Assembly: GCF_900215575.1 (NCBI RefSeq)
Contig: NZ_OBEJ01000002.1
Coordinates: 124,001-188,000, forward strand
Length of the DNA: 64,000 nucleotides
Origin: Natronoarchaeum philippinense
GTDB taxonomy: Archaea; Halobacteriota; Halobacteria; Halobacteriales; Natronoarchaeaceae
Direction: 5' to 3'
Notes under the pieces: generated by a model
What the model saw: the letters and a program-made list of their open reading frames with translations, nothing else
What the model was told of the DNA's origin: nothing
Database searches by the model: none
Translations under genes and position numbers: made by a program
Shown: positions 59,572 through 61,979 of the stretch, piece by piece
Layout of the letters: every line of letters begins with the position of its first letter
How positions within the stretch are numbered: position 1 is the stretch's first letter

Positions 59572-60606
59572 TCACTCCCCGATGCGCTCGCGCGCGGCGG
59601 CGACGACCAGCGGGAGCGTGATCGTCGCGTCGGCGTAGACGCTTGCGTTTCTGCCGGCCTTCTCGATTTTCCCCCACGAGCGAGCCTCTTCGAGGGTGGC
59701 GCCCGAGAGCCCGCCGGTCTGTTCGTCGTCCATCGTCAGCTGGACGGCGTAGTCGTAGGAATCGGGCGCGACCAGCATCGTCTGGAGGACGAAGTTCTTC
59801 GGGACGCCGCCGCCGACGACCATCGCGCCGGACTGCTCGGCGTCGAACGCCCGGTCGGTCAGCGGCGTCATGTCGCCGAGCGCGTCGAGTTCGAAGTCGG
59901 TCGTCTGAGAGTACATCCACGCCTGCAGGCCGAGCACCGAGTCCTGAATGGCCGGGCAGTAGATCGGCACGTCGTTCTCGTAGGCCGCGGCGGCGATGCC
60001 GGCGCCCTCGTCGATGCCCTCGCGCTCGTTGACCTCGGCGTTCGCTCGCCCCAACTCCTCGGTGAGTCGTTGGATGGTGACGGTCTCTTCGACCTCGGAG
60101 AACACCTCCGAGCGCAGGTGGTCCTCGAACAGCGCGAAGTGCTCTTGGGGGAGATAGACGTTGTAGATCCGGTCGACGCCCTCGTCGCGCAACTGCTCGT
60201 CGTGCTCGCGCATCGTCCCCTCGCCGTGGGTGCGTCCGTGGTGGTGCTTGCCGCCGATCGCCTCGATCGCGTCGTGGGTGAGGTTCGCGCCGGTCGTCAC
60301 CAGCACGTCGATGTGCCCGTCCCGGATCAGATCGGCGACGACTTTGCGCATCCCCGTCGGCACCATCGCGCCGGCCAGCCCGAAGAAGTTGGTCACGTCG
60401 TCGCCGAGCATCTCCGCGTAGATGTCGACGGCGCGGTTGAGGTCGTCGGCGCCGATGCCGGCCTCGCCGTACTGGTCGACCAGCTCGCCCACCGACATCC
60501 CGCCGCGCACGTCGGCGTGCCCGATCGGGTCGTGCGCGAACTCCTCACGGGGCGGCTGTTCGTGCTCTTCGTGCTCGTCGTGGTTCTCGTGGTCCTCGTC
60601 GCTCAT
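59572..60606 (-). CDS. dys: Deoxyhypusine synthase
   Basis: 344-residue enzyme that attaches the aminobutyl (or agmatine-derived) group to a lysine of aIF5A. The catalytic Lys is in GGGVPKNF (about 287); NAD-site motifs FFGLAGAMVPTGM and VTTGANLTHD are present. The N-terminus carries a His/Glu-rich run (HENHDEHEEHEQ), possibly metal binding. It is grouped with agmatinase and aIF5A downstream (62.0-63.2 kb), as expected for one modification pathway. Confidence 0.93.
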   Translation of the reverse strand: MSDEDHENHDEHEEHEQPPREEFAHDPIGHADVRGGMSVGELVDQYGEAGIGADDLNRAVDIYAEMLGDDVTNFFGLAGAMVPTGMRKVVADLIRDGHIDVLVTTGANLTHDAIEAIGGKHHHGRTHGEGTMREHDEQLRDEGVDRIYNVYLPQEHFALFEDHLRSEVFSEVEETVTIQRLTEELGRANAEVNEREGIDEGAGIAAAAYENDVPIYCPAIQDSVLGLQAWMYSQTTDFELDALGDMTPLTDRAFDAEQSGAMVVGGGVPKNFVLQTMLVAPDSYDYAVQLTMDDEQTGGLSGATLEEARSWGKIEKAGRNASVYADATITLPLVVAAARERIGE

Positions 60607-60692
60607 ACGACTCTCTCGCGGTGCGAGCGATTTGAACGCGACGGTCCTAGGATGGGTTGCTTTTGCTGTTCGATCTCTCGGTATCACCAACG

Positions 60693-61003
60693 CCGCCTCG
60701 AAAGCCCCCGATCGCTGGCGGGCCGGGACTCGCTGCGCGCGCTCGCTTCGCTCGCGTGCTTTCGTCGTCCGGGCGCCGCCAGCGATCGGCCCCTTTCAGT
60801 CCCGCCCGATGCCGGCTGACCAACCGGCGCAGGAGGGACTGAAAGGGGCTGCCGTCTCGGGGAAGACGGCCGACGTAAGCACCGCAGCCGCCGGAGGCGG
60901 TGAGCCGAGCGCAGCGAGGCGATCCTCGTCAGAGCCTTACTCTGACGGTGGCGAGGAGCGCAACGAAGCCCTCGACCCGAGACGGCAGGGGCTTTCGAGG
61001 CGG
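60693..61003. repeat. Perfect four-way-junction inverted-repeat element
   Basis: Four perfect helices meet with no unpaired base between them. P1: 60693-60708 with 60988-61003 (16 bp). P2: 60709-60721 with 60776-60788 (13 bp). P3: 60789-60803 with 60835-60849 (15 bp). P4: 60850-60861 with 60976-60987 (12 bp). P3 is capped by GCCGG/CCGGC; the P4 arm holds GCCGCC/GGCGGT and GTCAGAG/CTCTGAC hairpins. It could be a structured RNA, a cruciform or a small non-coding mobile element. It codes for nothing credible. Confidence 0.85.
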
Positions 61004-61211
61004 TGGTATCATGCTATTCGGTTCTCCAGCTACTGCAGCACAGGTTTATCCGACAGTGAGCGGCCAAAATCCCCCATCCGCCACTTGCTAGCCGCGACGC
61101 AGGAGTAGGCCGGTGCGCGACGCACCGCGTCGCGGCGGGGCTGGTCGACGCCGCTTCGATCCCCCGGTCGGAAGCGTCGCCTGCTCGCCCCTCACCCAGC
61201 CGTAACTTTCC
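61004..61211. other. Intergenic remainder before Nif3-like gene
   Basis: About 200 bp with no gene. GGTGCG/CGCACC near 61111-61125 forms a small hairpin, followed by further GC-rich partial repeats to about 61180. These lie at the 3' side of the minus-strand Nif3-like gene and could help end its transcript. Confidence 0.4.
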
Positions 61212-61979
61212 TCAGAGTCCGGTCGGATGGTCGACGAAGGTCGTCTCCAGTCCCCACTTTTCGGCCAGCTCCTGCAGCGATCGGACGCCGAACGTCTCGG
61301 TGGCGTAGTGGCCTGCGAGGAACACGTTGATCTCCAGTTCCCGAGCGAGGTGGTAGGCCTTCTGTTTGCCCTCGCCGGTGATCAGCGCGTCCGCACCGGT
61401 CGCAGCGGCGTCCTCGAGCCAGTCGACGCCGCTGCCGGTGACGATAGCCACGTCCTCGATCTCGTCGGGGCCAAAGGTCATCGCCCGAACGTCGCGCCCG
61501 CCGGTGTCCAGTTGCGAGCGCAGGTCGGCTTCCAGATCGTCAGCTTCGATCGGCTCGCTGGCCCGCCCGCGCTGGCCGATGTACTCGGCGCCGACGGTGC
61601 CGAAGGGCTCGCGGTCGTCGAGTTCGAGCAGGTCTGCGATTCCGGCGGCGTTACCCAGCTCTTGGTGGCCGTCCAGCGGCAGGTGCGAGACGTACAGCGC
61701 GATGTCGTTCTCGATCAGCGGTGCGATCCGCCCGTACTCGGTGCCGGTCACGCGCTCGATGCCGCCCCACGAGAGCCCGTGGTGGACGACCAGCGCGTCC
61801 GCGTCGGCGTCGACGGCGGCGTCGATGGTTGCCCGTCCGGCGTCGACGGCAAATGCGACGTGCTCGACGGTCCCTGAGTCCGGGCCGACCTGAAGGCCGT
61901 TCGCGCTGGCGTCGACATCGCTGTAGGCGTCGGTATCGAGACGATCGTCGTAGCGTCCGACGAGTTCCGAAAGCTCCAT
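61212..61979 (-). CDS. Nif3-like dinuclear metal centre protein
   Basis: 255 residues. Metal-binding motifs are NGLQVGPDSG near the N-terminus, VVHHGLSWGG (about 72-81), VSHLPLDGH and the late GHYATETFG. Family members form hexamers with two metals per site; some are linked to NAD/GTP cyclohydrolase-related chemistry, but the role is unsettled. It lies between dys and agmatinase in the aIF5A cluster. Confidence 0.92.
   Translation of the reverse strand: MELSELVGRYDDRLDTDAYSDVDASANGLQVGPDSGTVEHVAFAVDAGRATIDAAVDADADALVVHHGLSWGGIERVTGTEYGRIAPLIENDIALYVSHLPLDGHQELGNAAGIADLLELDDREPFGTVGAEYIGQRGRASEPIEADDLEADLRSQLDTGGRDVRAMTFGPDEIEDVAIVTGSGVDWLEDAAATGADALITGEGKQKAYHLARELEINVFLAGHYATETFGVRSLQELAEKWGLETTFVDHPTGL

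Follow-up and report, generated by a model that had tools for sequence, protein, structure and literature searches.

What occupies the interval between the dys and Nif3-like genes of Natronoarchaeum philippinense, where four perfect helices meet in an uninterrupted four-way junction? The locus lies in a window of 64,000 nucleotides (the whole stretch of DNA that was analysed), between two co-directional minus-strand genes (the Nif3-like gene ends at 61212 and dys starts at 60606), and a sequence-only reading had named three options for it: a structured RNA, a cruciform with a bound junction protein (for instance Hjc), and a non-autonomous mobile repeat. According to the analysis presented here, the element most probably belongs to a haloarchaea-specific family of the MITE type, the cargo of which consists of one or two inverted folding units of ~105 nt; TIR-bearing members would be mobilised by IS6, and the fold is kept in its single-stranded form.

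Architecture of the element

The four helices of 16, 13, 15 and 12 bp are all present at the positions that had been claimed for them, each perfectly complementary, and exact complementarity over 60693-61003 bears out the absence of unpaired bases at the junction (Table 1). That the junction is not a product of chance was likewise supported: the minimum free energy of the 311 bases amounted to −214 kcal/mol on the plus and −219 kcal/mol on the minus strand, with a stability z of about −11 on both strands and none of 100 shuffles being as stable. Rfam gave no match at the gathering score; weaker matches were at chance level.

The element consists of two inverted units, each fitting the covariance model of the family with an E-value of about 1e-17. 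Unit A is composed, in this order, of GGGACTGAAAGGGGC, the stem TGCCGTCTCGGG/CCCGAGACGGCA, inner hairpins and GGGGCTTTC, with about 60 nt of extra hairpin inserted into its inner part near 60890-60950; in unit B, GGGACTGAAAGGGGC is followed by the stem CGATCGCTGGCGG, the inner hairpin GCGAGCGAAGCGAGCGC and GGGGCTTTC. The junction is flush because the two units are inverted: their constant flanks GGGACTGAAAGGGGC and GGGGCTTTC pair flush against two hairpins. The four-way junction of the dimer is thus a geometric consequence of the head-to-head duplication.

Table 1. Features of the dys-nif3 interval (positions in the window).
Feature	Position	Strand	Basis
Outer helix	60693-60708/60988-61003		exact complementarity
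Outer stem, left side	60693-60708		inverted Y ends of both units plus extension
Outer stem, right side	60988-61003		exact complementarity, partner 60693-60708
Arm 1	60709-60721/60776-60788		exact complementarity
Arm 2, helix of 15 bp	60789-60803/60835-60849		exact complementarity
Arm 2, whole (X ends of units A and B in inverted orientation around a 31-nt spacer)	60789-60849		exact complementarity
Arm 3	60850-60861/60976-60987		exact complementarity
Unit A	60835-60996	+	covariance model R1, 95.4 bits, E 1.5e-17
Unit B, inverted copy	60700-60803	-	covariance model R1, 94.9 bits, E 1.9e-17
CTAG left of element, putative boundary or target site	60647-60650		CTAG excess in dimer flanks
CTAG right of element, putative boundary	61088-61091		CTAG excess; flank CTAGC(A/G)A recurs
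dys (deoxyhypusine synthase-like; name from the sequence-only reading), downstream gene	59572-60606	-	ORF and orthologues
Nif3-like gene (name from the sequence-only reading), upstream gene	61212-61979	-	ORF and composition-based gene call

A family of folding units in haloarchaea

In its general form the family unit of ~105 nt carries the constant ends GGGACTGAAAGGGGC (X) and GGGGCTTTC (Y). Between them lies a variable stem, S/S', mostly of 12 bp, which encloses inner hairpins built around GACG.AAGCACYGCAG..GAGGAGCGCAGCGAG. In dimers, the inverted X copies form arm 2 and the inverted Y copies the outer stem, with the hairpins flush between them; arm 2 and the inner portion of the outer stem do not change between copies, and arms 1 and 3, which vary from almost every copy to the next, are still paired. 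The arm-2 signature GCCCCTTTCAGTCCC-N-GGGACTGAAAGGGGC was present in at least 120 genomic stretches, all matches listed being haloarchaeal. Indeed, relatives and a scan of the genome collection showed that the recurrence of GGGACTGAAAGGGGC and GGGGCTTTCGAGG in haloarchaea had been rightly suspected; the search for many intergenic copies with covarying stems revealed a family of structured elements, and not a single copy with stems lost in relatives. Besides dimers, monomers occur. In some of these, GAAAG and CTTTC change jointly (CAAAG/CTTTG in L007 and L025; GGAAG/CTTCC in L008 and L026); therefore, the monomer closes on itself.

The covariance model of the unit was positive in 106 of 146 Halobacteriales genomes (copy numbers per genome are lower bounds, many genomes having at least 26 scored candidates). 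In a phylum-wide sample all 29 positives were Halobacteriales, and the model found no unit in the other orders sampled. Plasmids bear units as well, mostly between annotated genes. Carriage by phages or other viruses was rejected: phages gave no match, the viral contigs tested contained neither unit nor dimer, and viral 15-mer matches were devoid of units.

As judged by a simple gene caller of our own, none of 77 dimers overlapped a predicted gene; their contexts (tandem 42, divergent 28, convergent 7) resembled the background, and in divergent contexts the dimer edge was mostly located 80-97 bp from the start codons. Both the exclusively intergenic position and this spacing could be expected of a terminator working in both directions, or of an insulator, retained for the sake of host gene expression. 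Such a role is unlikely, however: convergent pairs are not favoured (7/77 versus 37/277 in the background), the distance to the start codons fits mere promoter avoidance, and in other genera the dys-nif3 interval does without the element, with the copy of the sister species decaying.

Several further features of the units were observed. In the dimers L031-L150, the stem of one arm usually begins with C and that of the other with G (85/115 versus 49 expected), as if most dimers descended from an ancient heterodimer. Arms of more than 140 nt (L061, L095, L100, L132, L135, L145 and others; the insert of unit A in the window) harbor two-hairpin modules, e.g. GTTCGAGAGAGC..GCTCTCTCGTCATCACGAAAGACGC..GCGTCTTTCGAAC, at varying arm positions and with the fold unbroken; apparently, these are small structured repeats nested in the units. 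A class of monomers (L007, L025, L008, L014, L029, L154, L155, L188) has a conserved module CGGYTGGGGAGG...GGGYGG directly before the X end; in these monomers the fold may extend further, to as much as about 300 nt. In several haloarchaeal plasmids, most of them MPF_T (L181, L183, L184, L185, L186, L187), a unit is positioned about 470 bp upstream of a gene for an SSB-like OB-fold DNA-binding protein; the position is conserved and the orthologous copies possess different, still paired stems, i.e. compensatory change took place in situ. The SSB-like gene was dismissed as a general partner of the unit, the link to MPF_T plasmids reflecting homologous plasmid backbones. Units in MAGs (L257, L258, L263, L271, L278, L279) often contain runs of N or are located at contig ends; the hairpins probably break assemblies, with the result that MAG counts are too low.

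Covariation and strand specificity

The alignment used for the covariation analysis comprised 60 distinct units and 25 consensus pairs. Two-sided changes were present in 22 of these 25 pairs, pairing cells accounted for 94% in the units versus 66% in shuffles, and the covariation score of 0.696 (shuffled: 0.197) was attained by none of 500 shuffles; the signal was lost when the partner was slid by one column. In unit orientation, the S stem contained 82 G-U versus 22 A-C combinations (75 versus 16 in dimers alone), 101 of the 138 apical loops were C(GNA)G and a single one was C(TNC)G, and the column pair 44-93 was occupied by CG (34), UG (15), UA (8) and CA (1). GNA triloops were discarded as proof of DNA, since such triloops occur in RNA too, and are considered here for strand specificity only. 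Taken together, compensatory changes are shown to preserve each unit as a folded single strand, in the orientation 5' GGGACTGAAAGGGGC to 3' GGGGCTTTC and on the unit's own strand; shared ancestry of the copies could explain part of the strand bias.

Within a dimer, the units occupy opposite strands, and the skew of each follows that unit's own orientation; therefore, the unit is selected, not a dimer-long RNA or a junction. Of the structured RNA option, the covarying fold was borne out, but a single four-way-junction RNA is unlikely, the arms of the dimer being kept on their own, opposite strands and monomers being found as well. The cruciform option fared worse: a double-stranded DNA fold bound by a junction protein such as Hjc would be in line with the perfect inverted repeats and the flush junction of the dimers, but a cruciform folds both strands alike and is strand-symmetric by nature, yet the G-U/A-C counts and the GNA/TNC loops are strongly asymmetric. 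In addition, monomers exist and the flushness follows from the inverted duplication. The strand asymmetry refutes the cruciform as the selected object, extrusion as a side effect being possible, and we regard a Hjc-type explanation as extremely unlikely.

The skew of G-U over A-C was 25:6 in units read on their own strand by a gene upstream and 42:6 in the others. This equality speaks against an RNA made by host read-through; single-stranded DNA and self-transcribed RNA are left as candidate objects of selection. A transcribed RNA family, in which the unit is a small ncRNA (or part of one) with its own promoter that was spread by transposition and is kept for its RNA function, is conceivable but rather doubtful. 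The strong covariation, the one-strand G-U wobble (e.g. at the column pair 44-93) and the slightly higher stability of the unit strand than of its complement under RNA parameters (115 versus 76) are in favor of it; however, there is no relative in Rfam, G-U accounts for merely about 3% of the stem cells, no TATA-like element was seen by eye before the X end, and transcription would have to start inside the element, given that the bias is equal without an upstream reading gene. We lean towards single-stranded DNA rather than host-transcribed RNA as the form that would be recognised, self-transcribed RNA being a possible one, because the strand bias does not depend on an upstream gene and because transcribed intergenic contexts are not favored by the elements.

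Terminal inverted repeats, target duplications and empty sites

In many lineages the inward-reading end GGTAGTGTTYAGATAAG is located 30-45 nt outside the outer stem; it was detected in 57 of 171 flanks versus about 7 in shuffled flanks. When left and right flanks were anchored at the TIRs, their identity (computed over 20 dimers) peaked at 8 bp with offset 0, at 0.49 versus mostly roughly 0.25-0.3 elsewhere; directly at the outer stem, there was no signal of a target duplication above random flank pairing. Perfect 8-bp duplications are present, e.g., in L135, L149, L278, L288, L289 and L291. The joined flanks of eight Halonotius dimers match continuously in sister genomes for most of them, and three of these empty sites were checked base by base (L104, L125, L140).

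A search with the end pattern revealed 697-bp elements with identical ends, perfect 8-bp duplications (CCCGTTCG, TAATAGGC, CCACCGAG, GGTTTACC, AGGAGGGG) and, in most of them, an intact ORF of 211 aa that represents an IS6-family transposase (NF033587, E 3.6e-58; PF13610). The ends GGTAGTGTTCAGATAAG are common to monomers, dimers and this insertion sequence; because an autonomous IS6 element has identical ends, both monomers and dimers are non-autonomous passengers whose ends are of the IS6 type. For many lineages, the suggestion of a non-autonomous mobile repeat was thus supported: the elements have TIRs and 8-bp target duplications, relatives have empty sites, and the ends of an IS6-family partner are identical. 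The TIR-bearing lineages are mobile, as their target duplications and empty sites show; an IS6-family transposase would act in trans on the GGTAGTGTTYAGATAAG TIRs and leave 8-bp duplications, a partnership suggested at sequence level by the common ends and the length of the target duplication. The unit itself would be recognised in its single-stranded form.

Two other partners were considered. IS1595, a candidate for 8-bp duplications, was only weakly present (1 of 5 TIR genomes), and IS6 turned up instead. A REPIN-like element moved by a Y1 transposase (RAYT/IS200-IS605 type) on single-stranded hairpins would account for inverted, intergenic hairpin units with a strand-specific fold; but Y1_Tnp (PF01797) is missing from unit-rich genomes such as G012, G015, G026, G032 and G039, its presence does not track unit copy number, and the TIR-type copies are bounded by IS6 ends and flanked by 8-bp duplications, which are not produced by Y1 elements. 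The Y1/RAYT partner was rejected, and a REPIN-like origin is very unlikely.

Some deviating forms were noted: a TIR-bounded element with a collapsed unit and 98 bp between its ends (L272:1501-1614) and another with an internal piece resembling the IS6 transposase gene (L294:1501-1807) look like intermediate or deleted forms, and L306:795-2198 comprises two tandem 697-bp IS6 copies with a common 8-bp AACGCCAC between them.

CTAG ends and inversion of the core at the dys-nif3 locus

Near the outer stem of the window element, the IS6-type TIR is absent from both flanks and CTAG is found instead. CTAG was present in 50 of 164 dimer flanks versus a background of 3%; the window copy and Haloarcula-type copies have it 40-90 nt outside and lack an IS6 end, the candidate ends of this type in Haloarcula and relatives being CTAGGAAC / TTGCTAG. 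A search for an autonomous element of the CTAG type yielded none.

With dys orthologues as anchor for locating the corresponding interval in relatives, the dys-nif3 interval was found to be short and free of the element in other genera that keep the gene order (L191, L192, L198). The sister species (G001) has a dimer at the same place, the inside of which is inverted versus the flanking DNA; one of its arms is nearly lost, the other decayed. In Halonotius, where two end types and two arms can be distinguished, seven copies had one combination and four the other. Both comparisons show that the inner core inverts relative to ends and flanks. A CTAG-type copy of the sister species is absent at the orthologous place in the window genome, which is not a clean empty site. 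The window copy is a family member by its units, and we infer its mobilisation; that one cargo is combined with two kinds of ends is notable in itself.

Comparison with known systems

The family resembles IS6-driven MITEs (haloarchaeal ISH14-like group): it shares its TIRs with an IS6 element, its target duplications measure 8 bp, a transposase is missing, copies are numerous and relatives have empty sites. It differs in its cargo, one or two folding units that are strand-specific and undergo compensatory evolution copy by copy, and in that this cargo also occurs with CTAG-type ends, e.g. in the window. Since MITE passengers normally decay, transposition alone does not account for the upkeep of the fold of each copy. 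What was found is a MITE variant, structured and built as an inverted dimer, and neither a known RNA nor a Hjc cruciform.

With REPIN/REP elements and their RAYTs, the family shares two inverted hairpin units, intergenic position and multiple copies; unlike these, the haloarchaeal units have about 105 nt, a freely drifting stem, IS6 ends, 8-bp duplications and no Y1 association, the REP-associated PF01797 transposase being missing from several unit-rich genomes. Integron attC sites are selected for the fold of one strand and have constant outer boxes and variable stems. The units resemble them in all three respects, but are scattered and mobilised through IS6 ends, and neither a cassette nor an integrase arrangement was seen.

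Among haloarchaeal repeats, the PATEs and SMRs of Haloquadratum walsbyi are transposase-free and contain palindromes, with small repeats nesting one inside another; SMR-A has about 110 bp and prominent inverted ends, and PATEs and SMRs make no target duplications (PMC3119063). Compared by description, they and the units are alike in being haloarchaeal, transposase-free and palindromic with nested small repeats (PMC3119063); the two are set apart, again by description, by the 8-bp duplications of the TIR-type units, and the covariance model found no unit on the Haloquadratum plasmid PL47. The open-access papers searched contained neither a description of the family nor a paper with its core sequence.

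Significance

The family is very abundant in haloarchaea, undescribed as far as the literature was searched and without a model in Rfam. It combines IS6-driven mini-transposons with the per-copy upkeep of a strand-specific fold, two things usually found apart, and opens to testing the question of why a non-coding mobile passenger retains helices that are perfect yet drift freely. Furthermore, it accounts for puzzling intergenic repeats and for some of the assembly breaks in genomes of haloarchaea, and its covariance model can serve to annotate the units. As a more far-reaching reading, put forward tentatively and with less than even confidence, the unit may represent a new haloarchaea-wide functional nucleic-acid fold that is read in single-stranded form by a protein, rides on different transposon ends (IS6 TIRs, CTAG) and can form an invertible head-to-head pair. 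If this is true, several transposition systems of haloarchaea would carry one structured, strand-specific passenger, which would be analogous to REPINs and attC yet distinct from both.
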